The notes: generated by a model from the letters alone, not told the origin. Positions 12,229 through 63,256 are shown, numbered from the stretch's first letter. The stretch: 64,000 bases of DNA from an uncultured Desulfomonile sp. (GCA_903952205.1 CAJBEZ010000098.1:62001-126000), one strand, 5' to 3'. Translations and numbers: made by a program.

Positions 12229-12945
12229 ATGAAAAAACACCCCGTTTTATCTGTGGTAGTTGCGCTGATTTTTCTAGGTTTGCCTTTTGCGGCATCTTTT
12301 GGAAAAGGAACCGATGTCTCAGCCGACGCGGCGCTAAAGGCTTTGAAAGAAGGAAACGAGCGCTACACACAAGCTAAGCCGATCCATCCAAATGTGGGAA
12401 AGGATCGAAGAACAGCGACTACAGTCGACGGCCAGGCCCCCTTTGCAAGCATACTGTCGTGTTCGGATTCCCGAGTTCCGCTCGAGATCATTTTTGACCA
12501 AGGAATAGGAGATCTGTTCGTTGTGAGGGTAGCGGGAAACCAGGCAAATTCGATTGAGACAGCTTCCCTCGAGTTTGGAACCGCAGTCTTGGGAACACCT
12601 CTCATTCTGGTCCTAGGCCATACCCATTGTGGAGCCGTAGTGGGGGCCATTCAGACCGCTGAAGCCAAAGGCGAGGCTCCAGCCCTTCTCAAAAGTATCA
12701 TTCCCGCTGTCGCCCAGGCGAAGAAAAATGAACCCAGCGCCTCTGGAGAGGCTTTGGTTAAGGCGGCGACTGAAGCCAATGTATGGCAGGCAATAGCGGA
12801 TCTTCTTCAATCAAGTCCCACTATTTCAGGCAGAGTCAAAGCGGGTAAGTTGCAAATTCAGGGCGCCATGTACGACATTGAAACCGGTAAGGTGACATGG
12901 ATGGGCCCCCATCCGAAACAGGACGAAGTGACTTCATCGAAATGA
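12229..12945 (+). CDS. Beta-carbonic anhydrase with signal peptide (exported)
   Basis: Reversible hydration of CO2 to bicarbonate. Zinc ligands are visible as C78-S-D80-S-R and H131-T-H-C134; the rest of the beta-class core (FVVRVAGN, GTPLILVLGHTHCGAV) is intact. Residues 1-25 form a signal peptide with a cut site near ASFG, so the enzyme should work in the periplasm, unlike the second beta-carbonic anhydrase at 62045. A GGG-rich Shine-Dalgarno region precedes the ATG. Dedicated promoter upstream suggests it is a single-gene unit. Confidence 0.92.
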   Translation: MKKHPVLSVVVALIFLGLPFAASFGKGTDVSADAALKALKEGNERYTQAKPIHPNVGKDRRTATTVDGQAPFASILSCSDSRVPLEIIFDQGIGDLFVVRVAGNQANSIETASLEFGTAVLGTPLILVLGHTHCGAVVGAIQTAEAKGEAPALLKSIIPAVAQAKKNEPSASGEALVKAATEANVWQAIADLLQSSPTISGRVKAGKLQIQGAMYDIETGKVTWMGPHPKQDEVTSSK

Positions 12946-40149: not shown

Positions 40150-41445
40150 CTACTGAATATATCCCATAAGTTTAGGAAGATAAAGGACCGCACTGGGCCA
40201 ATAGGTTATCAGCATAAGCACAGCGATCTGGATGGCCAGGAACGGTAAACACGCCTTGGTTACCCATACTAGGTCCTTGTTCACCATAGCCCCGGTTATG
40301 TAAAGACTGACCCCGACCGGAGGCGTACAGTAACCGATGGCCAGGTTGACGGTCATCAACAGACCAAAATGCAACGGATCAATATTGAAGGCGCTGAGCA
40401 TGGGGATAAATACAGGCCCGAGGATCATCGTGGCGGAAATGACGTCCATGAACATGCCCACTATCAGCAGGAGCCCGTTCATGGCCAACAGGAAAACCCA
40501 TGGGGATTGAATAGTGGAGAGGACCGCCTCAGTGATTTTTGGAGGGATGTTTTCCAGGGTCAGCAGTCTACCAAAGCAGCTTGCGCCAGCGACTATTATC
40601 AGTAGGGTAGCTGAAGTGACCGCCGACGAAACGAAGACCTTCTTTACCTGGTTGAGATTCATGGAACGGTGGATGAACAGTTCAACGACAAGTGCGTAGA
40701 CACAGGCAACTACAGCGGCTTCATTGGCTGTAAACGCTCCGGAAAAGATGCCGACAAAGATGATTACCGGCAGCATCAACGACCAGAAACCCTCTTTAAA
40801 AACAGCGACTAACTCCCCCGCACTACCGATGGGAGTACGGACAATTGAGGTATTTTTGCGAAATAAAAGGTAGCTATAGACGCAAATTAGTAATGTGATC
40901 ACGATGCCCGGCAGATAGCCTGTCAAAAAAAGACCTTCAAGGGAAACATTGCTGATCATGCAATATAGGATCATTGAGATGCTTGGGGGAATGATTATTC
41001 CAAGATTTCCGGAAGTAGTCATGAGCCCAACCGCATAATTCTTGGGATACCCTTTCTCTATTAGCGCAGGAATCATGAAGCCGCCCAAAGCGACTACGGT
41101 GGCCACGGTAGACCCAGAGATAGCCCCAAACAGGGCGCACGCTATGACACCAGCCATCCCCAGTCCCCCGGGAAGCCAACTCACTAGGGCGTTAGCCATC
41201 TTGATGAGTTTTTCAACTATTGTGCCGGTAGTCATAATGTTGCCACAGAGGATAAAGAACAGAACAACCACAAGAGCAAAGTTATCGAGGCTCCTGAAAA
41301 GTGTCTGAGCCAGCAAAAGGAGCGGCAGATCGGTGAACAGGACGAACCCCAAAACCGCTGTAAAGAACAGGCACATGAACACTGGTATGTACGTGGCCAG
41401 GCCGCCTAACAGAATAAGAAGGATTATAACGTGACTCGACTCCAT
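40150..41445 (-). CDS. dctM: TRAP transporter large permease (DctM)
   Basis: 431 residues, about 12 helices of the DctM family. Typical: GGFMIPALIEKGYPKNYAVGLMTTSGNLGIIIPPSI and NLAIGYCTPPVGVSLYITG. Sodium- or proton-coupled uptake of a carboxylate delivered by the DctP-like protein. AGGAG 10 nt before the ATG. Third gene of dctP-dctQ-dctM. Confidence 0.95.
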   Translation of the reverse strand: MESSHVIILLILLGGLATYIPVFMCLFFTAVLGFVLFTDLPLLLLAQTLFRSLDNFALVVVLFFILCGNIMTTGTIVEKLIKMANALVSWLPGGLGMAGVIACALFGAISGSTVATVVALGGFMIPALIEKGYPKNYAVGLMTTSGNLGIIIPPSISMILYCMISNVSLEGLFLTGYLPGIVITLLICVYSYLLFRKNTSIVRTPIGSAGELVAVFKEGFWSLMLPVIIFVGIFSGAFTANEAAVVACVYALVVELFIHRSMNLNQVKKVFVSSAVTSATLLIIVAGASCFGRLLTLENIPPKITEAVLSTIQSPWVFLLAMNGLLLIVGMFMDVISATMILGPVFIPMLSAFNIDPLHFGLLMTVNLAIGYCTPPVGVSLYITGAMVNKDLVWVTKACLPFLAIQIAVLMLITYWPSAVLYLPKLMGYIQ

Positions 41446-41536
41446 GAGGTTGTGTCTCCTAAATCTTACTTCAGTACAAGATCTCTTGACCGGACAAAGG
41501 CCAAAAATTTGTCTGGCTCGACCAATATTCCACGAT

Positions 41537-42031
41537 TTAACGCGCCATTGCGCTTTCTTGAGAATCCTCGTACATAATTTGGATAGTACGTAGGATCATG
41601 GTCGTCCCCATGATCGGGAGCAACGCATACAGATACACCAGAGGAATCTGCATGATGATGGTTTTTTGTTGGGTGGCCACCTGAAGCGCTGCCATCTTCC
41701 ATCCGTAATAAAGCATCATCAGCCCAAAGATAATGGTGACCACGTTGCTGAACAGAGTCAAAGGAAACTTCAGCTTGGGGACCAACTGAATAACTGCGTC
41801 GATCTTGATCATAGAGCGATTCTTAACCGCGGCGCCACACCCGATCAAAGTAGTGTAAATGATCACTTCCCTTACCAATTCCTCGGACCAGGCCAAAGTG
41901 TAATTAAAACCGTATCGCAAAACCACATTTAAGAACAGTGCGAAAAGGCAACCAAGAACGCTAAGAAAAAGGGTCCAGTCCTCAAAAAAAGTGAGAATCT
42001 TGTCGATCACATCGAGGATTTTTCCGAACAT
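41537..42031 (-). CDS. dctQ: TRAP transporter small permease (DctQ)
   Basis: 164 residues with four membrane helices. NVVLRYGFNYTLAWSEELVRE is the family signature (shown in part: LRYGFN..LAWSEEL). ATG at 42031 with AAGGA 8 nt upstream. Lies between DctP and DctM genes; 91 bp from dctM. Confidence 0.92.
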   Translation of the reverse strand: MFGKILDVIDKILTFFEDWTLFLSVLGCLFALFLNVVLRYGFNYTLAWSEELVREVIIYTTLIGCGAAVKNRSMIKIDAVIQLVPKLKFPLTLFSNVVTIIFGLMMLYYGWKMAALQVATQQKTIIMQIPLVYLYALLPIMGTTMILRTIQIMYEDSQESAMAR

Positions 42032-42171
42032 GTTGGGATTCCTTGATATCGTTGATAAATCATTTGCCGGCTTTTTTAAACCGAACAGCGGCAAATCTGT
42101 CCGACACTCACGATATGGATAAAGTGATCAGTTCCTAAAGCCTCTCCCCATTATCGTTACTGTCTGAAACT

Positions 42172-42203
42172 AAAAAAGGAGAGGGCGCACGAATCCCTCT
42201 CCC
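42172..42203 (-). terminator. Terminator between dctP and dctQ
   Basis: On the minus strand GGGAGAGGG pairs with CCCTCTCC (42195-42203 and 42178-42185), 9-nt loop, then T6. Placed just after the dctP stop, it would let the binding protein be made in excess over the permease. Confidence 0.8.
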
Positions 42204-42219
42204 TTTACGTTTTATGAAT

Positions 42220-43302
42220 CTAAGGCTTGTAACCTAATAATCCATCAACTTCCTCGAGAAAGTTGGCTGGACGATAGGTGTCTCCAGGATACAACTTGTT
42301 TATTTCAGGGGCAAATTTCTTGTGAACCGAGTCTCCCAGCTTCTTTAGTGTGTCCATTTCTTCCTTTGAAAGGCTGATGAACTCGATCCCGTTTTGTTTC
42401 GCCGCCGCTATCTGGTCTGCTTCCTGCTGAACGGTTTCCTTACGAATCTTGGCGCATACCTCGTGCACAACTTCCTTGAAGGTCTTCTGCAGGTCAGCCG
42501 GCAAGGAATTGAACCATGCCTTGTTGAAGATCCAGATAAAGAGACCCTGGGCATAATTTATGTAGGTAAAATGTTTCGCGTCTTCAAATTTCTTGGAGAT
42601 ATTGCACACGATAGGCGTGTGATCCAAACCGGTGATAACGCCCTGCTTCAGGGCAATGGGCACATCCGGCCACGGCATGGCGACAGGGCTAAATCCCCAC
42701 GCCTGATAGAGCAACTGGTTGACGGCCGCTTCAGCAGTCCTAAACTTAATTGCCTTGGCGTCTTTAAGCGACCTGACGGGGATTGTGGTAGCCCAGCCGT
42801 AATTGCCATAACCAGTGATATCTAGTCCCATGATACCCTGATGGTCCATGGCCATGAGAAAATGGTCGAAGATTTGCCCGCTCGCCACAAACTTGTCAAG
42901 TTTCTCAAAAGAATCGACCAGGAATGGCAAGTTTACGATCCCAAACCTGGGTCCAAGGTTGGTTGCGGCGACTGAACTGCAACCCATTCCCTGTATGGCG
43001 CCCATCTGTAGCTGGTTGAGCACTTCTACCTCACCACCGAGCATGGAAAAGGGTTTGAAATCCAAAAAGATCTGCCCGTTGGTCCGTTTCCATAACTCAT
43101 CCCGGATGGCGAACCCGGTGTAGACTCCTTTGATATCCGGATGCGAGACGTTTGATACGACACATTTGTACTTGGCCCCCGAAGGATCGAAAGCGGGCTT
43201 CCACGCTTCCAGGGGCGGTGGGGCTCCAATGGCGGCGCCAACTAACAAGCCCACGCTGATCAAGCAGACTGTGAGCAGAAATGCCAATCTTTGAACTTTC
43301 AC
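42220..43302 (-). CDS. dctP: TRAP transporter substrate-binding protein (DctP)
   Basis: 360 residues, DctP family. Signal peptide cut near AIGAPP. AIKFRTAEAAVNQLLYQAWG carries the usual substrate-carboxylate Arg (KFRTAE), then GVITGLDHTPIVCNI. GTG start with AAGGAGG 5 nt upstream. Substrate not predictable; aromatic residues near the Arg suggest a larger carboxylate. First gene of the transporter operon. Confidence 0.93.
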   Translation of the reverse strand: MKVQRLAFLLTVCLISVGLLVGAAIGAPPPLEAWKPAFDPSGAKYKCVVSNVSHPDIKGVYTGFAIRDELWKRTNGQIFLDFKPFSMLGGEVEVLNQLQMGAIQGMGCSSVAATNLGPRFGIVNLPFLVDSFEKLDKFVASGQIFDHFLMAMDHQGIMGLDITGYGNYGWATTIPVRSLKDAKAIKFRTAEAAVNQLLYQAWGFSPVAMPWPDVPIALKQGVITGLDHTPIVCNISKKFEDAKHFTYINYAQGLFIWIFNKAWFNSLPADLQKTFKEVVHEVCAKIRKETVQQEADQIAAAKQNGIEFISLSKEEMDTLKKLGDSVHKKFAPEINKLYPGDTYRPANFLEEVDGLLGYKP

Positions 43303-44680: not shown

Positions 44681-44897
44681 TTGGACGATGCGTCTGGCTT
44701 GGTTAACGCACCGGGGGAAGAGAATCGCATTGGCTTTGTAAGGAATAATCAATACGATTGACGCATAATGGTGAGCAACATCCGTGCCAGGGCCTGACAA
44801 AAAAAGTTTTCTACCAACCAACTGAATTTCAAGCAAAAGTAGATCTGTGGGATCGGCGGCTCAATAGGAACGCCCGTTTCTAGAACTGTCAATCTTT

Positions 44898-52308: not shown

Positions 52309-53613
52309 ATGTCCCTGGCTCAAAAACAGAGAGTCGCCTCGGGCGTTAGCCAGTTGGATCGTCTATTGGGAGGGCTGTTTATTGGCGATAATGTTGTATG
52401 GCATGATGACGCCGGCAGTCTTGCGTCAGTATTCTGCCTCAACTTTATCCAGTCATCTCAATCCCAGGGAAAACCAGTAATATATGTGAGCTTTGACAGG
52501 TCCCCGCGAAACCTGTTGGAAAAACTGGGGACTCTTGCGGAAAATCCCCATTTGACGATTCTCGACTGTTTCACATGGGGCAAGGGTTCAGGATCCGACA
52601 TTTTTTTAAAGTTCTACTACGAGTCCAAGACTGATTGGCCATGTAGAATCATTCGAGTGGACGATCCACGAAGACCTGAGCATGTGATGGAAATCCTTTA
52701 CGGCGTGCACGAGCCTATGGAGGGCGACGTGAGGCTGGTTTTTGAGAGCCTTACAGGGATGCAGGAGGTCTGGGGGGGTGAAGACAGCATCGTTAGCTTT
52801 TATACACATTCCTGCCCCCGGCTTTATGAACTTAACACCGTCGCATACTGGATGATGGAAAAAAACGCTCATTCCGCCCGGCTCAGGGCACAGATAAACC
52901 AGATCGCCCAGGTGGCCATTGAGTTATCAATCAAGCGCGGAGCGACATCACTCACAATTCTCAAAGCTGAAGAGCGCAGTTTTGAGAACCTGCATCGTCC
53001 ACATACATATTGGACAAAGGACCTCAATGTCAGATTTGAGGAAGAGCGAAGGACTTCCGGCAGGATAGAGCTGGGGTTAAGGTTGAAGCACGTAAGGACA
53101 AAGAGAGGACTTTCTCAGACGGAATTGGCGAAACTGGTAGGTGTAACCCCAAGCACAATTTCACAAATTGAGAGCAATCTCATATATCCATCTCTTCCCG
53201 CATTGCTGAAGATGGGTGAAGTGCTTTCGGTCGATGTAAGCTATTTTTTTCAGGATCGGGCCGACGTGGCGAGACGAATTGTTTTTTCGGCCTCCGAAGC
53301 ATTGGAGGTAAGACTCCCTGATATGCCAGAAGGGGTGCTTATGGCAAAACTGATGACACCAATAGATTTTGACGGCCAGGCCGAGCCTTATATGATCGAA
53401 CTGGCTCCTGAAGCAAAACTTCCGTGCCATTTTTTTGTCCACAAAGGGGAAGAAGTAGGTTATCTGCTTTCAGGTCGACTTCAAATGACGGTTGAAAAAG
53501 CTGTGTACAAATTGAAAACAGGGGACTTGGTATATCTAACGTCCGAAATACCCAATCAGTGGATCAATCCCGGCCCTGGGACGGCAAAGCTTATTTGGTT
53601 GAAATTAAAATAA
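52309..53613 (+). CDS. Fusion regulator: inactive KaiC/RecA-like domain + XRE helix-turn-helix + cupin
   Basis: 434 residues. Residues 8-235 follow the KaiC fold (SGVSQLDRLLGG, VIYVSFDRSP, VFESLTGM, QIAQVAIELSIKRG), but the Walker A is replaced by HDDAGSLAS and the Walker B Asp is Glu, so no ATP hydrolysis is expected. Residues 255-315 are an XRE helix-turn-helix (LRLKHVRTKRGLSQTELAKL). Residues 345-434 are a cupin (HFFVHKGEEVGYLLSGRL). HTH-cupin pairs are common regulators of small-molecule pathways; the KaiC-like head is unusual. The last 19 codons are duplicated at 63411. Confidence 0.85.
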   Translation: MSLAQKQRVASGVSQLDRLLGGLFIGDNVVWHDDAGSLASVFCLNFIQSSQSQGKPVIYVSFDRSPRNLLEKLGTLAENPHLTILDCFTWGKGSGSDIFLKFYYESKTDWPCRIIRVDDPRRPEHVMEILYGVHEPMEGDVRLVFESLTGMQEVWGGEDSIVSFYTHSCPRLYELNTVAYWMMEKNAHSARLRAQINQIAQVAIELSIKRGATSLTILKAEERSFENLHRPHTYWTKDLNVRFEEERRTSGRIELGLRLKHVRTKRGLSQTELAKLVGVTPSTISQIESNLIYPSLPALLKMGEVLSVDVSYFFQDRADVARRIVFSASEALEVRLPDMPEGVLMAKLMTPIDFDGQAEPYMIELAPEAKLPCHFFVHKGEEVGYLLSGRLQMTVEKAVYKLKTGDLVYLTSEIPNQWINPGPGTAKLIWLKLK

Positions 53614-53714: not shown

Positions 53715-54003
53715 TCATCGCACGAAAAACGAGTCAGGAACCCCCACGTCCATAACTTCAAAATCTGCAGCAAGCGGAATGAAATCAAGTAAATTTGGGT
53801 TGATGATTTGCGCGGCTATTCGTTTTGCAGTTTCCCTCTCCGGAAAGATAGCCTCGGTAGCTCCTACGGCTTTTAGAATTCTGGCGCGTTGAACTTCATC
53901 CACTATTGAATTTACTCGAATTTCATCATTATCCAGAGCAATAACTTTAGCGAATTTTGCCAGTTCTCTGGCGAGTTCGCTTCCAAACTGGCCCAGGCCT
54001 GAT
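53715..54003 (-). pseudogene. TrkA/KtrA-like RCK-domain pseudogene
   Basis: Reading the minus strand gives SGLGQFGSELARELAKF and VIALDNDEIRVNSIVDEV, the start of an RCK nucleotide-binding domain. It then jumps to RILKAVGATEAIFPERETAK, the end of the domain. The middle (about 50-60 residues), the first strand's start and the C-terminal RCK half are missing; a TGA ends it at 53715. TrkA/KtrA proteins gate potassium channels. Not functional in this form; no potassium channel gene nearby. Confidence 0.7.
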
Positions 54004-54154
54004 CGTGATTTGAGCCAATGTCTCCGCTGTCCAACATTTCACATTGTCTCTATTAATTGCAATTTGTCGCGATTTGTCTCATATTGTGTTTCATGCCGAA
54101 AAAAGTCTAGCCCGTAGTTTGGCCAACATACCGTAATAATTAGTCTATACCGTG

Positions 54155-54170
54155 TGGCACGATACATGCT
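54155..54170 (+). promoter_or_regulatory. Sigma-54 promoter of the receiver/CBS/transporter cluster
   Basis: TGGCACGATACATGCT fits the -24/-12 consensus TGGCACG-N4-TTGCW with one mismatch; GG and GC are correctly spaced. Start near 54181, about 38 nt before the first ORF of the cluster. Requires a sigma-54 activator, none of which is intact in the window. Confidence 0.7.
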
Positions 54171-54218
54171 TATATAGTTGCGTCATTTCAATTAAAGAAT
54201 TTCACCGGAGTCAGACGC

Positions 54219-54590
54219 ATGCCGGAGAGCATTCTTCTGGTAGATCAGGAAGAGAAATTTCTTCAAGCCCTGTCCACACGCCTTAGAAGCGCTGGTTTTA
54301 CTGTTCAGGTATCACTGGATCTCAGTGACGCTCTGGTTTCGATAGAAACATCCGACATTGATGCGCTGGTAGTGGGGGATCCGGATGACTGGCCCAATTT
54401 TTTGGGATTGCTCGGAGAGATAAAGAGGCTGAAACCCCTGGTGGCAATAATCATGCTGACGCCGCATGTTTCGTCGGATTACGCCATAAAGGCCATGAAA
54501 CTGGGGATCTATGACTGTCTCCCCAAACCGACCAATATTGGTGAGTTGATTGAAAAAATCAAGGAAGCTGTGCCCAGAACAGTTTTGTAA
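54219..54590 (+). CDS. Degenerate receiver-domain protein
   Basis: 123 residues, a receiver alone. The acidic pair reads D9-Q10-E11 instead of D-D, and the phosphoacceptor strand is ALVVGDPDD, with Gly53 at the aligned position and Asp54 next to it. Thr (IIMLTPH) and Lys (CLPKP) are kept. It may bind partners without normal phosphorylation, or use the shifted Asp54. First gene after the sigma-54 promoter. Confidence 0.8.
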   Translation: MPESILLVDQEEKFLQALSTRLRSAGFTVQVSLDLSDALVSIETSDIDALVVGDPDDWPNFLGLLGEIKRLKPLVAIIMLTPHVSSDYAIKAMKLGIYDCLPKPTNIGELIEKIKEAVPRTVL

Positions 54591-54653
54591 ACATGGCGTC
54601 GTTAAGAAGGCGACGCCACGAATAATAATGAATTTCATCAGGAGGCGATGCTA

Positions 54654-55211
54654 ATGGAAAGTATCCGGGTCAAGGACCTAATGGTGCCGGTAGAGGAGTA
54701 CGTCACCATTTCGGCAACGGCTACACTCTACGAAGCGGTAATCAAACTGGAACAGGCCCAACGAGATTATGAACAAAAGAAATGTCCGCACAGGGCCCTA
54801 TTGGTCTTGGGAACTTCCGGCGAGGTAATCGGCAGGATGAACAAGATCGATGTGATCAGGAGTCTTGAACCAAAATATGTGGAGTTGGGAGACTTGAGAA
54901 AAGTTTCCGGTTTCGGTTTGGCTCCTGAATTTATGAAGGCGATGATGGACAAATTCGAACTATGGGAAACTCCGCTCAATGATCTTTGCCGAAAGTCGGC
55001 GGATGTGAAAGTGGGGGATTTGGTGGCCACGCCTCTCGAGGGGGAAATCATCGACTCCGAGGATACATTAAACAAGGCTGTTCATCAGATCATCGTAGGT
55101 CATAAACAGTCGTTGATTGTGAAATCTGGTGGAAAGATCGTGGGGATCTTACGCCTGACGGACGTTTTTGATGAAATCGCAAAGCGTATGAGGCTGTGCA
55201 AGATTCAATAA
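54654..55211 (+). CDS. CBS-domain pair protein
   Basis: 185 residues with two CBS modules (VKDLMVPVEEYVTISATATL...EVIGRMNKIDVIRSL and VGDLVATPLEGEIIDSEDTL...KIVGILRLTDVFDEI). CBS pairs bind adenine nucleotides and often gate transporters. AGGAGG lies 8 nt before the ATG at 54654. An insert of about 45 residues (EPKYVELGDLRKV...LNDLCRKS) separates the modules. 38 bp ahead of the DASS carrier, so control of that carrier is likely. Confidence 0.85.
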   Translation: MESIRVKDLMVPVEEYVTISATATLYEAVIKLEQAQRDYEQKKCPHRALLVLGTSGEVIGRMNKIDVIRSLEPKYVELGDLRKVSGFGLAPEFMKAMMDKFELWETPLNDLCRKSADVKVGDLVATPLEGEIIDSEDTLNKAVHQIIVGHKQSLIVKSGGKIVGILRLTDVFDEIAKRMRLCKIQ

Positions 55212-55248
55212 TTATAACAATGGCAGATAGTTAAGGAGGATTCCTTTT

Positions 55249-56730
55249 ATGAGCGCCGAAGCTGCAACCCTATCCAGTGGAATGAGGATTAACTGGACCC
55301 GTTTGATAGCGCTATTTACAGGCATAGGTCTGTTCATAGTGATCTACTATTCACCCCAATGGCCGGACGCGATTGATCCGGCAGGCAAAGCATTTTCCCT
55401 GTCCGTGCAAGGTAAGGGGGCAATAGCGGTTTTTATGCTGGCCGGTATTTGGTGGGTTTTTGAGGTGGTCCCTATCGGTGTGACCAGCCTTGTGATAGGC
55501 ATAACCCAGGCCCTGTTCATGATTCGGCCCGCGAAAGAGGCTTTTAACGATTTCATGGACCCGGCGGTCCTGTTCATCTTTAGCTGCCTTGTGATAGGCC
55601 TGGTTTTTACCAAGACAGGGCTTACAAAGCGTCTGGCCTACAAGATGCTGGGGGCCATAGGTGAGAAAACCACTACTATTTACCTCGGCATATATTTGCT
55701 GATCACTGTGTTGACACTAATAATGGCCCACACTGCGGTCGCTGCGACCATCTATCCCCTGCTGCTCGCTGTTATAAGCCTTTACGGAGAAGGCGACAAG
55801 CCAACCAGATTCGGTAAGGGCCTGTTCATGGGTATGGCTTATGTGTGCGGCGCGGGCAGTATCATAACCCTGTTGGGCTCAGCAAGGGCCATTGTCGCTC
55901 TCGGATTCTTCAAGGAAATGACTGGAGTGGACACTCCTTTTTTTACACTGACCTATTACATGGCGCCTGTAGGGTTGTTGATGGTGTTCCTACTCTGGGT
56001 ATTCTTTGTGGTCTTCTTTAAACCCGAAAAGTCAACCATTCCAGGATTAAGAGAGCGGGTAAAGGAATTAAGCGCGAACTTGGGGGCAATAACCAGGAAA
56101 GAAATCTTAAGTCTGGTCATAATATTCGCCGCCATAATCTTCATGTCTCTCCAGGTAACCATTCCAGCGCTGAGAAAGATAGACAAGACAGCGATAATTC
56201 TTGTGGCGACAGTGCTCTTCTTTGTGTTTAACATCCTGGATATCGAAGACCTCGAATTAATCCCATGGAACATCGTCCTGCTATTCTCCGGCGCGATGAG
56301 TATCGGTTTCTGTTTGTGGCAGACGGGAGCGGCTGAATGGATGGCCGTAAACTGGCTCGCCATGTTCAAGAACGCCCACTGGCTGGTATTCGTGGTTGGG
56401 GTGGCCTTTTTTGTCATGATACTCACCAACTTCATAATGAACGTGGCCGCAATAGCTATCGCGATGCCCGTCGCCCTGGTAATATCAAAGTACCTCGGTG
56501 TGGATCCCATGGTGGTAATGTACGCCTGCCTGGTGACAGCGGGTATGCCTTTCGTCCTGTTAGTTGGGGCTGCGCCAAACGCTATCGCTTACGATTCGAA
56601 ACAGTTTACGAGCGGCGAATTCTTCATGTACGGCTGTCTTGCGAGTGTCATCCTGATCGCTGTGACCACTCTTGCCTGCTACGTAATTTGGCCGCTAATG
56701 GGGATGGCGACACTGCTCAAAGCCATGTGA
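55249..56730 (+). CDS. DASS/SLC13-family anion symporter
   Basis: 493 residues, about 11-12 helices. WWVFEVVPIGVTSLVIG near the N-terminus and TNFIMNVAAIAIAMPVALV followed by GMPFVLLVGAAPNAIAYDS match the family's second and first substrate loops (the SNT-like repeats read MAHTAVAATI and TNFIMNVAA). Members carry dicarboxylates, sulfate or citrate with sodium. Sulfate reducers use DASS proteins among others for sulfate uptake, so sulfate is a real possibility. AAGGAGG precedes the ATG. Confidence 0.9.
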   Translation: MSAEAATLSSGMRINWTRLIALFTGIGLFIVIYYSPQWPDAIDPAGKAFSLSVQGKGAIAVFMLAGIWWVFEVVPIGVTSLVIGITQALFMIRPAKEAFNDFMDPAVLFIFSCLVIGLVFTKTGLTKRLAYKMLGAIGEKTTTIYLGIYLLITVLTLIMAHTAVAATIYPLLLAVISLYGEGDKPTRFGKGLFMGMAYVCGAGSIITLLGSARAIVALGFFKEMTGVDTPFFTLTYYMAPVGLLMVFLLWVFFVVFFKPEKSTIPGLRERVKELSANLGAITRKEILSLVIIFAAIIFMSLQVTIPALRKIDKTAIILVATVLFFVFNILDIEDLELIPWNIVLLFSGAMSIGFCLWQTGAAEWMAVNWLAMFKNAHWLVFVVGVAFFVMILTNFIMNVAAIAIAMPVALVISKYLGVDPMVVMYACLVTAGMPFVLLVGAAPNAIAYDSKQFTSGEFFMYGCLASVILIAVTTLACYVIWPLMGMATLLKAM

Positions 56731-56785
56731 AATAAATCTGATCGCGTGTATCAAGGTTTCAAAATGTAACAGAGAGGAAATGACA

Positions 56786-58525
56786 ATGAGGCGTCATTTA
56801 ATACTTTGCCTTATCTTAATATGCTCAATTGTATCCATTGCGGGTATAGCTTCGGCTGATAAAACCAACCCACCTAAAGACGTGCTGGTAATCCAGGGCA
56901 AGATACTCGATTCATCGGGAAGCGCCCTAAGTGACGCGAATATTTTGCCGTATCTAAATGGCAAGCCTTTCCTTGCGGCAGGTCATGGGGCTGACGCTGA
57001 AAAAGACTATACAACAGGGAAGAATGGACTTTTCCGGATCGAAATCCCAACAACCGAAGATAAAATCAAGTCGGGCAAATGGGAGATCAAAGTCACTAGG
57101 CCCAGTTTCAAACCTTCCCAGCTTACGACTTTAAAAATCTCGGATGGGGGCGTTTCAGAGGATGGCGCACGTATATCGGTCGCCAACGCCTCCGTTCAAT
57201 TAAAGAGATTCCAGGGAGCTGCATTCTGGATAGCGTTGATTGTGTTTGTCGCAGTCTATGTGCTCATAGCTTTTGAGATTCTGCACAGGACACTTGCAGC
57301 GTTTTTAGGCGCCGCTCTGGTGTTGCTGATTACTCATACTTTTGGACACTTTGACGAGGCTTACAACATCCTGACATGGGACCAGGCCCTACATGCAGTA
57401 GACTGGAACGTTATCTTCCTGTTGATGGGCATGATGATAATCGTGGGGGTCCTTAAGGGGTCGGGTGTATTTCAGTGGTTGGCGTACAAGTCCTTTCAGG
57501 TTGCCAAAGGTCAAATATTCCTCCTGGCTTCCATTCTATGCATAGTAACAGCATTTTGCAGCGCTTTCCTGGACAATGTCACAACCATGCTGCTGCTCAC
57601 GCCTGTGACAATGGAAATCGCCCTTGTCCTTAAGGTGTCGCCGTTTGTGTTCCTGCTCCCGGAAATCCTGGCGTCGAACTTCGGCGGCACCGCCACACTG
57701 ATCGGTGATCCACCCAACATCATGATTGGATCATTCGCTGGGATAACTTTCAATGATTTTGTCTTGAACCTAACTCCTGTAGTGATATTTGTGATAATCG
57801 CGCAGATCATATACAACAAATTCGTCTACGGCGCAGATTACCACCGAGCCAAAGTCGAAGATGCGCCCAAGATGATCGCGTTCCTGAAAGAAAAGTACAA
57901 AATCACGGACAGCAAACTGCTGTACCTTGGAGGATCAGTGCTCCTTGGGGTCATCGCCCTCTTCGTCCTGCATGGCATGTTCCACATGGAAGTTTCGGTT
58001 GCCGCGCTTTTTGGAGCGGCTCTAATAGTTCTCCTTTGCAAGATGGATATTGTGGAGATGCTTGAGAAAGAGATCGAATGGCCATCACTGGTTTTTTTCA
58101 TTATGCTCTTCATTGTGGTGGGCTCCGCTGAACAAACGGGTATACTCCAGGTTATCGCTGACTGGATAAAAGATGTCTGCCAGGGGAGACTGTGGGTGGC
58201 GGTGCTTGTCATTCTGTGGGTATCGGGTTTTGCTTCGGCGATTGTGGACAATATCCCTTACACCGCGACAATGCTCCCGATAGTATTGTTTCTGAACAAG
58301 TCCATCCCTGGAGCTGAATCAGGGGTCCTTTGGTGGGCGCTAGCTCTGGGGGCGTGTTTTGGAGGCAATGGCACCATCATTGGGGCATCAGCCAATGTTG
58401 TTACAACAGGGATAGCTGAAAAAGCGGGCTACAAGATAACCTTCGGCCAATTCGTGAAAGAGGCGGCGCCGATCACCATTATCAGTCTCATCATCTCTTC
58501 GGTTTTCCTGCTTCTGAGATATTGA
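56786..58525 (+). CDS. ArsB/P-protein-type (IT superfamily) carrier with extracytoplasmic N-terminal domain
   Basis: 579 residues. Signal peptide or anchor (cut near ASAD), a 120-residue carboxypeptidase-regulatory-like (Ig-type) domain (VIQGKILDSSGSALSDANI), one helix, then about 11 helices of the CitMHS/ArsB/P-protein family: AFLDNVTTMLLLTPVT, LIGDPPNIMIGS, ASAIVDNIPYTATMLPI and GGNGTIIGASANVV. The two DN(I/V)xxT loops are intact. The extracytoplasmic domain is not usual in this family. ATG at 56786 with GAGAGG 8 nt upstream. Substrate unknown (anion or Na+/H+). Confidence 0.87.
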   Translation: MRRHLILCLILICSIVSIAGIASADKTNPPKDVLVIQGKILDSSGSALSDANILPYLNGKPFLAAGHGADAEKDYTTGKNGLFRIEIPTTEDKIKSGKWEIKVTRPSFKPSQLTTLKISDGGVSEDGARISVANASVQLKRFQGAAFWIALIVFVAVYVLIAFEILHRTLAAFLGAALVLLITHTFGHFDEAYNILTWDQALHAVDWNVIFLLMGMMIIVGVLKGSGVFQWLAYKSFQVAKGQIFLLASILCIVTAFCSAFLDNVTTMLLLTPVTMEIALVLKVSPFVFLLPEILASNFGGTATLIGDPPNIMIGSFAGITFNDFVLNLTPVVIFVIIAQIIYNKFVYGADYHRAKVEDAPKMIAFLKEKYKITDSKLLYLGGSVLLGVIALFVLHGMFHMEVSVAALFGAALIVLLCKMDIVEMLEKEIEWPSLVFFIMLFIVVGSAEQTGILQVIADWIKDVCQGRLWVAVLVILWVSGFASAIVDNIPYTATMLPIVLFLNKSIPGAESGVLWWALALGACFGGNGTIIGASANVVTTGIAEKAGYKITFGQFVKEAAPITIISLIISSVFLLLRY

Positions 58526-58573
58526 GGCTAGGGTAAAAATGTTACGATTCTGTTAAGTGAAGGAGAATATACG

Positions 58574-59005
58574 ATGATTGCCAAGATATTGTTGGTTGAT
58601 GATGAGTCGCCTTTCGTAGAAGCCTTGTCCAAACGACTCACCATGCGTGAACTCCAGGTATCAATAGCCTTGAGTGGTCCGGAAGCTTTGGAAAAACTGG
58701 AACAAAACCCTTCAATAGATGTGGTTGTGCTCGACGTGAAAATGCCGGGAATGGACGGCATCGAAACCCTGAAGGCTATCAAGGCGCGATACCCACTTAT
58801 AGAAGTCATCATGCTCACTGGCCACGCTACAGTTGAATCAGCCATAGATGGAATGAAAGACGGCGCTCTGGACTATCTGATGAAACCATGTGACCTGGAC
58901 GTCTTGATGGCGAAAGTTCGCGAGGCAAAGAACAAGAAGGCCGCCCAGGAGGCCAAGATCGCCGAGGCTAGAGCTATGAATATATATCACCGCCGAGGCG
59001 ACTGA
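58574..59005 (+). CDS. Single-domain response regulator
   Basis: 143 residues. D9-D10, phosphoacceptor D54 (VLDVKMPGMDG), T82 (MLTGHAT), K104 (LMKPCD): fully intact. A short basic/alanine tail (AKNKKAAQEAKIAEARAM) follows. No output domain. It is probably phosphorylated by the sensor kinase at 59759. Sister of the receivers at 61550 and 62831 by sequence. Confidence 0.9.
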   Translation: MIAKILLVDDESPFVEALSKRLTMRELQVSIALSGPEALEKLEQNPSIDVVVLDVKMPGMDGIETLKAIKARYPLIEVIMLTGHATVESAIDGMKDGALDYLMKPCDLDVLMAKVREAKNKKAAQEAKIAEARAMNIYHRRGD

Positions 59006-59110
59006 ACGGTTGGCGCTTCCTTAAGGAGATCAAGACACACCGTTTGAAGTATTATTGGTCCTAATAGTAAGAGATTGTTTCGTATTTGAAGATTTAACTT
59101 GAGGTGAAAC

Positions 59111-59611
59111 ATGCCACACTCCGTATCCGTTTCTCAACTTATGATCAGCCCCAACGCATGGCCGTTGCTATCGGTTGAGGCCGACGTTGAGTCTGCTATT
59201 AAGATTCTGAGAATAAATACTGAAGACTCAAAGCTACTCCAGGGACACTCCACGCCTCTGGTGCTCGAAAGTGACTACAGCCTGCTGGGGTTTGTGCATC
59301 TTATCGATCTGTTGCGGGTCATCAAACCACTATGTAAGGTCTTGGACGCTCCCTGCGAGATCGACAAGGCCACCATGTCCATCAGGGAAATCGTGGTGTC
59401 TTTTGCCGCCACTGTCGAGGCTACTGACTCAATGATGACAGCCCTGGACATCATGATGGAACACAGGATTTCCTTAATTCCGGTTTTGAAAGAAAAGAAA
59501 CTGATCGGGATAATAAAACTTTCCGATATATTCAACGAAGTGGCGTCGCTTCTTTTTGATAAACAGATCTTAGATCAAAAAGAAGTCCTCATGCGACGAT
59601 TTCATCTATAA
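59111..59611 (+). CDS. CBS-domain pair protein
   Basis: 166 residues, two CBS modules: SQLMISPNAWPLLSVEADVESAI with LLGFVHLIDLLRVI, and SIREIVVSFAATVEATDSMM with LIGIIKLSDIFNEVASLL. Looks like a paralogue of the CBS protein at 54654 with a shorter linker. Sits between a receiver and the sensor kinase. Confidence 0.82.
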   Translation: MPHSVSVSQLMISPNAWPLLSVEADVESAIKILRINTEDSKLLQGHSTPLVLESDYSLLGFVHLIDLLRVIKPLCKVLDAPCEIDKATMSIREIVVSFAATVEATDSMMTALDIMMEHRISLIPVLKEKKLIGIIKLSDIFNEVASLLFDKQILDQKEVLMRRFHL

Positions 59612-59758
59612 CGGTGTCAGCAAGGGGAGGCGGCAGGAGATAACGATGATATCACGATTTAGTCGTGCCATTAATACAGGGACAAGTCTCCCCTTTCCCA
59701 AATTAATAATTTGATCTTCTCTCCCTGGAGTAGCTCAAGCGGTCGGCGGAGGCCGAAC

Positions 59759-61462
59759 ATGACAACAACCGAAAAAACGAGCGAGTCCTATTACAGGTCT
59801 CTAACTAGAAACATAATCTTTGTAATAGTCGGTGTTTCCGTAGTGCCTCTAATATTGATCACGTTCACTATCAGATATTTTTCCCAAACATCGTATCAGG
59901 ATAAGGTTATTGAACATCTCCAGGTACTCAACAAGAAACATAAACAGAATATCGACAGTTTCTTGAAGGAACGGCTCGCCGATATCTCCATTCTCAAGGA
60001 TTCCTACAGTTTTGATCAATTGGCGAACGATGATTTTCTCAAGGAGAAACTCCGGTCGCTGCAAAAGAATTCCAGTGATGCCCTAGTGGATTTGGGAGTA
60101 GTTGACGAGCATGGGAAACAGATCGCTTACGCCGGGCCATACGATCTCAAGGGAGCTAACTATGCGGAAGCTCCCTGGTTCAAGGCGGCTATCCAACAAC
60201 CTTTTTATGTCAGTGATGTTTTTCCCGGACTGAGAGGTATACCTCATTTTATAGTCTCAGTTCGGAGCGCAAATGGCTCGACATGGATACTGAGGGCCAC
60301 TGTTGATTTCGACAAATTCAATTCACTTGTTGAGAACATCCGCATAGGGGAAACAGGGTTCGCATTCATCCTGAACAGGAAAGGCGAGTTTCAGACTAAA
60401 CCGCGCACGGATGTCCCTCCCCAGAAGGACCCTTACCTGAGTTTTCTAACCCCGGGGACTAAAGATCTCGAACAGGAAGGAGTAGTTTCAAATTCCAAGA
60501 TTGATGGGCGAGATATTATCCACGTCATGTCCAGATTAAAAAATGGAGACTGGGTCCTCGCTTTTCAGCAAACCGAATCGGACGCTTACAAGGCCCTTTA
60601 CACTGTCAGGACCATCACCCTGTTAATATTCTTTTTGGGCGTAATTGGAATTGCTTTTGTTTCCGTGCTCCTTTCAAAGAGACTCGTAAAACGCATAAGA
60701 CAGGCGGACCAGGAAAAAGAGATGATGGACGAGAAGGTGATCGAAGCGGGCAAACTTGCTTCGGTAGGAGAACTGGCCGCAGGAATAGCCCACGAAATAA
60801 ATAACCCGGTCGCTGTTATGGTCGAGGAAGCCGGTTGGATGCAGGACCTCATTGCCGACGCCGGGCCGGGTTCCATCCCCATGGTGGATGAATTCGAACG
60901 ATCGCTTACTCAGATAAAAGCCCAGGGCCTTCGTTGCAAACAAATTACTCACAAGCTGCTGAGTTTCGCCAGGAAGACCGATCCTGTGCCAAAAAGGGTA
61001 AACATCAACGATATCCTGCGCGAAGCGATTTCGTTGTGTGAACAGCGAGTACATTCGGGCAGCGTCAAGATACAGGGACAATTTGCCGACGGTCTCCCGC
61101 CGATTCGTGTGTCACCCTCTGAGGCTCAACAGATTTTCATAAACTTGATCAACAATGCCATTGACGCCATCGAGCCAAAGGGAGGCATACTCAAGATATC
61201 CACCAGGAAAGAAGGCGACTTCATAGTCGCTGACGTGGCGGACAACGGGCCGGGAATCCCTAGTTATGTGCTGCCACGGGTTTTTGACCCTTTCTTTACT
61301 ACCAAACCTGTCGGCAAAGGCACCGGGCTCGGCCTGTCAATATGTTACGGCATCATGAAGAAGCTGGGCGGAGACATAACGGTCAACACCGCCGAAGGAC
61401 TGGGAACAACTTTTCATGTTAAATTCCCGGCATCTAAATTAATCGATAAAAAGGCGAGTTGA
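59759..61462 (+). CDS. Sensor histidine kinase with Cache-type sensor domain
   Basis: 567 residues. TM1 (about 19-40), a dCache-like sensor (41-285: GVVDEHGKQIAYAGPY, APWFKAA, FDKFNSLVENIRIGETGFAFILN), TM2 (about 293-315), then HisKA with phospho-His345 (GELAAGIAHEINNPVAV) and HATPase (INLINNAIDAIEPKGG, DNGPGIP, FTTKPVGKGTGLGLSI). Cache domains bind small ligands such as carboxylates or amino acids. The ATG at 59759 has GGAGG 6 nt upstream. Probably the input kinase of the cluster. Confidence 0.93.
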   Translation: MTTTEKTSESYYRSLTRNIIFVIVGVSVVPLILITFTIRYFSQTSYQDKVIEHLQVLNKKHKQNIDSFLKERLADISILKDSYSFDQLANDDFLKEKLRSLQKNSSDALVDLGVVDEHGKQIAYAGPYDLKGANYAEAPWFKAAIQQPFYVSDVFPGLRGIPHFIVSVRSANGSTWILRATVDFDKFNSLVENIRIGETGFAFILNRKGEFQTKPRTDVPPQKDPYLSFLTPGTKDLEQEGVVSNSKIDGRDIIHVMSRLKNGDWVLAFQQTESDAYKALYTVRTITLLIFFLGVIGIAFVSVLLSKRLVKRIRQADQEKEMMDEKVIEAGKLASVGELAAGIAHEINNPVAVMVEEAGWMQDLIADAGPGSIPMVDEFERSLTQIKAQGLRCKQITHKLLSFARKTDPVPKRVNINDILREAISLCEQRVHSGSVKIQGQFADGLPPIRVSPSEAQQIFINLINNAIDAIEPKGGILKISTRKEGDFIVADVADNGPGIPSYVLPRVFDPFFTTKPVGKGTGLGLSICYGIMKKLGGDITVNTAEGLGTTFHVKFPASKLIDKKAS

Positions 61463-61549
61463 GCTTATGGCAATATGGAAGATGTGGGAAACAATTTAAG
61501 AAAGTTTCTTCCTAAGTGAGAAATATCAGGTTTTTCTCAGAGGCGAAAA

Positions 61550-61960
61550 ATGAGTTCTGATCTTGTTCATGATTCAAATAAAATCAATCTATTATTGGTC
61601 GACGATGAGCAGGCTTACGTCAATATATTATCTAGAAGGCTGGAGAGAAAAGGCTTTCAGGTCAAAATAGCTAATAATGGGACCCAGGCCATTCAATTAG
61701 CAAGGATAGAGGATTTTGACGTTGCGGTGCTGGACCTAAAAATGGATGACATGGATGGTATTGAGGTCTTAAAGATATTCAAGAAAATGGTGCCTGATAT
61801 GATTGTAATCATGCTCACAGGACATGGTTCCGAACAGGCGGCCAGGGATGGAATGAAATTCGGAGCGTTTGATTATCTCACTAAGCCTTGTGATTTTGAA
61901 GACCTGGTAGCTAAGATTTGGGAAGCCTATGAAGACAAAAAAAACAAGATTCTGATTTAG
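61550..61960 (+). CDS. Single-domain response regulator
   Basis: 136 residues. D18-D19, phosphoacceptor D62, Thr in MLTGHGS and Lys in LTKPCD. The usual Pro after the phosphoacceptor (MPGMDG) is replaced (MDDMDG). No output domain. Begins 88 bp after the sensor kinase. Confidence 0.9.
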   Translation: MSSDLVHDSNKINLLLVDDEQAYVNILSRRLERKGFQVKIANNGTQAIQLARIEDFDVAVLDLKMDDMDGIEVLKIFKKMVPDMIVIMLTGHGSEQAARDGMKFGAFDYLTKPCDFEDLVAKIWEAYEDKKNKILI

Positions 61961-62044
61961 AGCTCCAATAACTTGCAGTCAGGGACACTAGGTTTCAAGT
62001 TCATATTTGCATGAAAATATTTTATTAATCGTGGGGAGAAGCCA

Positions 62045-62641
62045 ATGACCGCTCAAGAGTCACTGTCGTTGTTGAAAGATGGCAATATTCGGTTTAGCTC
62101 CGGCCGAGCCGAAAGACCGCACCAGGATGAAAGTAGAAGGATTTTCCTCGACGATAATGGCCAAAATCCTTTTTCTGCAGTGCTTTCATGCTCCGATTCC
62201 AGAGTGCCGGTCGAGATAATTTTTGACAGGGGTAAGGGTGATATTTTTGTTGTACGGACAGCGGGAAACCTCGATGGAGAGGGTGAAACCGGGAGCCTTG
62301 AGTATGCGGTTGAACACCTGAACGTCCCTCTAATAGTTATTTTGGGCCATTCAAACTGTGGGGCGGTCACTGCGGTTGTTGACCACTGCGAAGCGCATGG
62401 CCGCATAAAATCCATTGCCTGCAGAATCGCTGTTACGGTTGCAGAAACTGAACATGTCAAACCGAGCCTCAACCACAGAGATTTTATTGACGCCTGCTCG
62501 CGTGAAAATGTCCGAAAAGTAGTGGAACACCTTAGACTTGAAAGCGACATAATTCGGGAAGCCCTTGAAAAAGGTAACTTGAAAATAGCGGGCGCATATT
62601 ACCATATTCGTTCCGGCGTCGTGGAATGGTTGGACAGGTAA
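62045..62641 (+). CDS. Beta-carbonic anhydrase (cytoplasmic)
   Basis: 198 residues. Zinc ligands C49-S-D-S-R and H102-S-N-C105, plus FVVRTAGN. No signal peptide, in contrast to the paralogue at 12229. Interconverts CO2 and bicarbonate. It lies inside the receiver cluster, suggesting the cluster concerns bicarbonate or anion balance. GGGGAG upstream of the ATG. Confidence 0.93.
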   Translation: MTAQESLSLLKDGNIRFSSGRAERPHQDESRRIFLDDNGQNPFSAVLSCSDSRVPVEIIFDRGKGDIFVVRTAGNLDGEGETGSLEYAVEHLNVPLIVILGHSNCGAVTAVVDHCEAHGRIKSIACRIAVTVAETEHVKPSLNHRDFIDACSRENVRKVVEHLRLESDIIREALEKGNLKIAGAYYHIRSGVVEWLDR

Positions 62642-62830
62642 ATTGGGAATAGTGTCAGCCAGAGTAATTCATTAAATTTCAGTGTCTACTAATTTACCGG
62701 TGTGTGAAACGGTTCACAAGATCGTTAAAAGACATCGTGGCACCATTGCTGGATATTCCCGATGAGAGGACCACACCTGAGACAGCATAGAGCTAACTGA
62801 CAAAATAAAGAAATAAGAGGAGCTAATTTA

Positions 62831-63256
62831 ATGATCAGAGTTCTTATAGTGGATGATGAAAAAGATTTTACCGAACTGCTTTCTGAGCGTCTTGAAACGC
62901 GGGGATTCAAAACCAGGATTGCTTTTGATGGGAATGAAGCTATTTCGAGACTCAAGGAAGAAAACGCTGACGTAGTTTTATTGGACGTTATGATGCCTGG
63001 GAAGAGTGGTGTGGAAACTCTCAAAGAGATCAAGAACTCATGGCCCATCACGGAGGTTATCATGTTGACAGGCCATGGCACCGTAGAAACAGCGATAGAA
63101 GGAATGAAGCTGGGGGCTTACGACTATCTGATTAAACCAACGGAGACCGAGGATCTATCTCAAAAGATCACGAGCGCCTACCAGCGAAAATCAGACCATG
63201 AGGAAAGGATCAGACAGGCTGAAATAAATAAAATAATTGAACATAAGGGATGGTAG
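62831..63256 (+). CDS. Single-domain response regulator
   Basis: 141 residues. D8-D9, phosphoacceptor D52 (LLDVMMPGKSG), Thr in MLTGHGT and Lys in LIKPTE. Charged helical tail (KSDHEERIRQAEINK). No output domain. AGGAG precedes the ATG. Last gene of the cluster. Confidence 0.9.
   Translation: MIRVLIVDDEKDFTELLSERLETRGFKTRIAFDGNEAISRLKEENADVVLLDVMMPGKSGVETLKEIKNSWPITEVIMLTGHGTVETAIEGMKLGAYDYLIKPTETEDLSQKITSAYQRKSDHEERIRQAEINKIIEHKGW

Follow-up and report, generated by a model that had tools for sequence, protein, structure and literature searches.

The window (the whole stretch of DNA analysed, 64,000 nucleotides) carries at 54155–63256 ten open reading frames on the same strand, with intergenic gaps of 37–189 bp. 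The genes and the control features before them are as follows.

54045–54093, minus strand: putative upstream activating element, about 60–110 bp before the −24 box
54155–54170, plus strand: sigma-54 (−24/−12) promoter TGGCACGATACATGCT, 11/12 match, 48 bp before the first ATG
54219–54590, plus strand: RR1, pseudo-receiver with Gly at the phospho-Asp position (PF00072, 55 bits; signature DQ/G/T/K)
54648–55211, plus strand: CBS1, CBS-pair protein (PF00571; model pLDDT 90)
55249–56730, plus strand: DASS carrier, probable Na+/sulfate symporter (PF00939, 154 bits, well above cut-off; TIGR00785, 194.2 bits against a curated cut-off of 198.6)
56780–58525, plus strand: carrier of the P-protein/ArsB/MamN type, extended at the N-terminus by an additional domain of ~140 aa (PF03600, 289 bits)
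58574–59005, plus strand: RR2, single-domain receiver with an intact phosphorylation site (PF00072, 100 bits; DD/D/T/K)
59111–59611, plus strand: CBS2, second CBS-domain protein (PF00571, 51 bits)
59711–61462, plus strand: dCache histidine kinase (dCache_1, HisKA, HATPase_c)
61550–61960, plus strand: RR3, single-domain receiver (PF00072, 103 bits; DD/D/T/K)
62045–62641, plus strand: beta-carbonic anhydrase (PF00484, 139 bits; SCSDSR and HSNC ligand motifs in the sequence)
62831–63256, plus strand: RR4, single-domain receiver (PF00072, 107 bits; DD/D/T/K)

Each of the ten genes is supported by Pfam (Response_reg in four, CBS in two, Na_sulph_symp, CitMHS, dCache_1 with HisKA and HATPase_c, and Pro_CA). 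The ten-gene cluster of signalling proteins and anion carriers described in the first-pass annotation is thus present as placed, and it is conserved in relatives. The kinase more likely starts at the ATG at 59759 than at the listed TTG at 59711. In both CBS proteins, Pfam detects the second CBS motif alone, although the CBS1 model shows a complete CBS pair. The P-protein carrier reaches neither the curated NCBIfam cut-off for ArsB (about 94 of 457 bits) nor the curated cut-off for MamN (175 of 500 bits). The remnant of a TrkA-like NAD-binding protein (GLGQFGSELARELAKFAKVIALDNDE..., 53720–54040, minus strand), which has lost its start, separates the cluster from the gene upstream. An unusual 434-aa fusion at 52309–53613 combines a weak KaiC-like ATPase stretch with HTH_3 and Cupin_2. 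The host genome has two beta-carbonic anhydrases, both on the contig of the window, the other one at window positions 12229–12945.

The gene set and its order recur in other genera of the host's family (L037, L038, L039, L040, and L056), indicating that the cluster is not a product of chance. The family order is RR-CBS1-DASS-P-protein-RR2-CBS2-(RR)-kinase-RR3-(carbonic anhydrase), and CBS2 occupies the corresponding place in L037–L041, L049, and L056. RR4 is most similar to the operon-leading receiver of L037 and L039. Gaps of up to 189 bp, together with the changing place of RR4 and the anhydrase between relatives, would fit neighbouring units that are functionally separate. That explanation is very improbable, given that the order RR-CBS-DASS-(P-protein)-RR-CBS-kinase-RR is kept across genera at 55–90% identity and that the CBS–DASS pair is conserved across the phylum.

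Searching named genomes with the DASS alignment yields 80 loci, all from Desulfobacterota or from metagenome-assembled genomes named as Deltaproteobacteria or Proteobacteria. The DASS relatives are 64–84% identical. A CBS protein adjoins the DASS gene in most of these loci, directly upstream in 61/80 and directly downstream in 14/80, with some loci having both. The stretches fetched around the 80 DASS genes also contain receivers (55), kinases (45), sigma-54 activators (38), a 473-aa hexapeptide protein (28), a NifX-like protein (23), SulP (8), P-protein (8), NhaB (5), and carbonic anhydrase (1). A frequent order in relatives is PAS-sigma-54 activator, NifX-like protein, receiver, CBS1, DASS, and then the hexapeptide protein, a kinase, or a P-protein carrier. 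Homologous genes therefore co-occur widely in other genomes; the first-pass annotation would have been refuted had they never done so.

Several neighbours in these loci deserve mention. The hexapeptide protein beside CBS–DASS (L090:1957-3375 and 27 other named loci) corresponds to PDB 3c8v, a putative acetyltransferase of D. desulfuricans G20 that distantly resembles gamma-carbonic anhydrases; its model is of low confidence (pLDDT 69). PPDK/PEP-synthase-like proteins recur beside these kinases, DASS, and TSUP carriers (L089, L177, L181, L182, L213, and L220). On contig G326:C15 (L178), the receivers-CBS1-DASS-P-protein unit is present as a tandem duplicate.

The four receivers of the window are 123–143 aa long and single-domain, consistent with the first-pass statement that none has a DNA-binding output. 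The canonical DD, D, T, and K residues are present in RR2, RR3, and RR4, and the kinase has HisKA and HATPase domains, as expected of a two-component phosphorelay. RR1 was called a pseudo-receiver from the outset, and its residues bear this out: Gly replaces the phospho-acceptor Asp, and Gln replaces one acid of the pocket, which leaves no phosphorylatable site. The same signature is common to its two orthologues, L040 and L120. Among relatives, about half of the 32 receivers directly before CBS1 miss canonical residues, as do 12/14 receivers that stand before CBS1 and after a NifX-like gene, whereas 38/41 receivers after kinases are canonical. By these counts, an inactive receiver leading the operon is a conserved trait, seen in Desulfovibrio-like and Desulfobacterales-like genomes and in the window.

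Receivers in relatives are mostly single-domain as well (95/127 are under 175 aa). The output-less receivers beside the carriers suggest control at the protein level. Fusions of a receiver with a cytidylate-kinase-like domain (PF13189) also occur (404–436 aa, e.g., L090:8270-9493); they are often the first gene past the sigma-54 promoter of DASS, or stand beside SulP. Proteins of 218–261 aa between receivers (e.g., L090:7400-8053) match the kinase profile weakly and are perhaps phosphotransfer proteins; no Pfam domain is found in the one examined, L090:7400-8053.

The first gene of the window's cluster is preceded by the sigma-54 site. For relatives, we scored 89 CBS/receiver-DASS operons, counting sites within 300 bp that match at 9/12 or better and have the GG and GC fixed. 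A site is present in 31/49 operons led by a receiver and in 2/40 operons without a leading receiver, against about 8 expected by chance in all 89 operons (dinucleotide-based shuffles); 27 sites score at least 10. Sites of 9/12 are unspecific by themselves, with 17 expected in 85 kb, and therefore the case for the promoter rests on its position, its co-occurrence with a receiver leader, and the repeats upstream of it. Elsewhere in the window, a 12/12 site (TGGCACGGATGTTGCT, position 44789, minus strand) precedes the minus-strand genes at 40150–43302 by some 1.5 kb.

The upstream motif was discovered by k-mer enrichment in the relatives. The heptamer TGAAACA occurs 28 times upstream of sigma-54 sites, mostly on the minus strand, compared with 1.5 expected, and belongs to GRRACA units that repeat every 10 bp. 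Phased GRRACA repeats (11 of 12) are present in 21/65 upstream regions of sigma-54 sites and in 9/737 regions before other gene starts. Because the motif was discovered on the sequences in which it was counted, held-out operons from other genomes weigh more; a sigma-54 site with repeats is found in 4/6 comparable ones, of which three reach only the looser cut-off of 10 of 12. Few of the loci L141–L164, taken with 1.5 kb flanks, show a sigma-54 site, which makes this set uninformative for the upstream element. The element of the window has GAGACA-type units in 10-bp phase at 54080, 54070, and 54050, and one off-phase TGAAACA at 54093–54087 on the minus strand.

In many relatives, a gene for a sigma-54 activator with a PAS domain, not a receiver domain, adjoins the cluster. 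The window contains no adjacent activator gene. The nearest activator of the host (C71:100412-101785) is 62% identical to that of L037 and stands beside a CysP/PiT-like carrier. From this co-location, the PAS-type activator is the obvious candidate to bind the phased element. The conserved sigma-54 promoter and the 10-bp-phased GRRACA repeats before receiver-led operons, with a PAS-type activator as neighbour in many relatives, speak against the first-pass view that control is probably not on transcription, and indicate that transcription is controlled too. Transcription might even be the only level: the activator would set the amount of carrier, the kinase and receivers would relay to other targets or simply take up phosphate, and the CBS proteins would not contact the carriers. 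Such an account draws on the conservation of the promoter with its phased element and on the activator gene that adjoins many of the operons. We regard it as unlikely, since a PAS-type activator leaves the kinase and receivers without a visible DNA output, and since CBS proteins still adjoin DASS in operons that lack a leading receiver or promoter.

The folds nearest to the CBS1 model are CBS proteins solved with AMP, ADP, or ATP (CBSX2, AcuB, DarB, and MgtE). In the second nucleotide motif, the usual Thr/Ser is replaced by an almost invariant Arg (R169), and Asp172 is retained. CBS1 may thus sense an adenine nucleotide and regulate the carrier encoded beside it.

The DASS carrier links the cluster to sulfate respiration. 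In one set of 395 Desulfobacterota genomes searched with DASS, dsrA, and the P-protein carrier, DASS is present in 73, and dsrA scores above the cut-off in 71 of these. Overall, dsrA is present in 188/395 genomes and in 117/322 genomes without DASS (Fisher p = 5e-24 for the association, from cross-tables compiled by hand from listings; the genomes are related, and the p value overstates the independent evidence). The two DASS genomes without dsrA are 67% (G082) and 62% (G117) complete. The relation runs one way, in that 117 dsrA genomes are without this DASS. The host carries dsrA (G000:C36:122418-123653), and SulP was not found in its genome. DASS is near-exclusive to dsrA genomes; therefore, the cluster is a sulfate-respiration module.

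The same link favours sulfate over bicarbonate or a carboxylate as the substrate, and DASS most likely performs Na+-coupled sulfate uptake. Characterised DASS carriers offer no guide to the substrate. In VcINDY, the SNT motifs bind the substrate; in nearly all of 95 DASS relatives they are replaced by AHT and MNV, and we rejected an assignment from these motifs. Expression of the DASS genes of D. autotrophicum according to sulfate level has been described (PMC5840216). The first-pass annotation had left the choice between bicarbonate, sulfate, and a carboxylate; of these, sulfate gains and the other two are less favoured. If the carriers moved another small anion (a C4-dicarboxylate, sulfite/thiosulfate, or bicarbonate fed by the carbonic anhydrase), then the breadth of the DASS and P-protein families, the departure of the SNT motifs from characterised members, and the presence of an anhydrase in several clusters of the family would all be accommodated. 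The near-restriction of DASS to dsrA genomes speaks against this, as do the scarcity of the anhydrase, which is missing from most DASS clusters (1/80 named loci has one), and the occurrence of the same kinase family beside SulP, TSUP, and CysP-like carriers. A substrate other than sulfate seems unlikely.

The P-protein carrier shows the same association. In the 395 genomes, dsrA accompanies it in 63/72 (p = 1e-14), and both carriers are present in 32 (p = 8e-9), with the two genes within about 3.5 kb of each other in 26 of these. It is also found alone, and in some dsrA-negative genomes, and the host has a second one on C65. In the window it follows DASS, and in five Desulfovibrio-like loci NhaB lies in the operon, mostly after the hexapeptide protein. 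The relatives L088 and L099 exemplify the pseudo-receiver-CBS-DASS-hexapeptide-NhaB type of module. A reasonable guess from these positions is that the P-protein carrier and NhaB have a common role in Na+ or charge balance.

The Cache kinase is re-used beside other anion carriers. In six genomes, 19/23 full-length relatives of the kinase lie near a DASS, SulP, TSUP, CysP-like, P-protein, or ClC carrier. This total combines all five in the host with 14/18 in the other five genomes, where the carriers are of the DASS-family, SulP, TSUP, P-protein, or ClC kinds; these counts include homologous loci more than once, and we estimate chance proximity at about 4% (about eleven such carriers per 4.8 Mb). 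The host's five kinases that match over the sensor and kinase domains are spread over four loci, and a candidate anion carrier is present at every one: DASS and P-protein in the window, a PHO4/PiT-family carrier on C71, and TSUP on C36 and C37. The C71 carrier scores higher against the CysP sulfate-permease model (145 bits) than against PitA (56 bits), both below cut-off. According to PMC11887813, the Cache kinase of Desulfosarcina variabilis is common to its DASS cluster and a SulP cluster; the TSUP and CysP-like loci extend this reported sharing of the sensor. Solved structures were tried as a guide to the sensor's ligand and set aside, giving weak matches only and no close solved sensor. 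The same ABC-transporter genes flank different carrier clusters in the host (L175) and in G005 (L186), with activator-NifX-kinases-PiT/CysP between them in the former and DASS-receiver-kinase-anhydrase in the latter; the carrier has apparently been swapped at one site.

Parts of this design are familiar from other systems. In PhoR/PhoB-PhoU-Pst, as in the window, a kinase, a small regulator, and an ion importer are encoded together and import is matched to supply; there, the output is the DNA-binding PhoB and the importer is of the ABC type, with no CBS proteins or single-domain receivers. In MgtE and ClC channels, the CBS pair is fused to the carrier and gates ions on Mg2+ or nucleotides, whereas in the window it is a separate protein beside the DASS carrier. 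DctB/DctD likewise combines sigma-54 control with a Cache-type kinase encoded next to a carrier; sigma-54 activation there falls to DctD, whereas the candidate activator of the present cluster is a PAS protein distinct from the receivers.

The closest counterpart is published. The first-pass annotation knew of no described system with such a make-up, and a related one appears in PMC11887813 (2025): a DASS/CBS/Cache-kinase cluster in 26 sulfate-reducing species, in Desulfobacteraceae and 14 other sulfate reducers, with abundant DASS carriers in the D. variabilis cluster Dvar_38230–38430. The D. variabilis cluster and that of the window share DASS, CBS proteins, Cache kinases, receivers, and a sulfate-reducing host; the window has the PF00939 carrier, CBS proteins, and Cache kinase in a dsrA-bearing genome, and its cluster is a variant of the published kind. 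The paper proposes that sulfate is sensed outside, and APS, ATP, or sulfate inside. The regulators are called WalR-type in the paper and are drawn acting on promoters, whereas the four receivers of the window are single-domain, one of them a pseudo-receiver, and no WalR-type DNA-binding regulator is found among them. In its available part, the paper mentions neither a sigma-54 promoter nor a phased element or a pseudo-receiver for the D. variabilis cluster; a P-protein carrier, NhaB, and carbonic anhydrase are likewise not named for it. In the D. vulgaris sigma-54 regulome (PMC4641369, available part), TSUP and putative sulfate-export operons are under sigma-54, and no CBS protein is mentioned. 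The open-access literature that we searched describes neither a make-up of single-domain receivers with a pseudo-receiver nor a sigma-54 promoter with a phased element for such a cluster, nor P-protein, NhaB, and carbonic anhydrase partners or the spread over TSUP and CysP-like carriers. The apparently new elements are the pseudo-receiver, the promoter with its phased element, the re-use of the kinase, and the P-protein–DASS neighbourhood.

We propose that the cluster is a two-layer control unit for dissimilatory sulfate uptake, and give this reading as a whole a probability of about 0.6. DASS would import sulfate with Na+, and the P-protein carrier would be its ion partner, perhaps exchanging Na+ for H+ and so rebuilding the Na+ gradient. 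In the transcriptional layer, a PAS-type activator, encoded on another contig in the host, would bind the 10-bp-phased element and fire the sigma-54 promoter. In the activity layer, the membrane Cache kinase would sense an outside anion or metabolite and phosphorylate the single-domain receivers, and the CBS pair would read intracellular adenine nucleotides (energy or APS state). The CBS proteins, the receivers, and the non-phosphorylatable pseudo-receiver would then bind the carriers and throttle import. More tentatively, at somewhat less than even odds, the output of such a two-component/CBS system may be a membrane carrier rather than DNA, with phosphorylated single-domain receivers, a conserved pseudo-receiver, and a nucleotide-sensing CBS protein binding and gating secondary anion carriers in a unit that is swapped among sulfate/sulfur carriers of the DASS, SulP, TSUP, and CysP-like kinds.

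Dissimilatory sulfate reduction begins with sulfate uptake, which bears on the rate of the process and on its isotope signal, yet little is known of how cells restrain this step. Specific candidates come from the cluster: a CBS protein tied to a carrier, a pseudo-receiver that is conserved between classes, a sigma-54 promoter whose upstream element can be defined, and a sensor kinase that recurs with at least four carrier families. A genetically tractable Desulfovibrio with the same module makes each of them testable.
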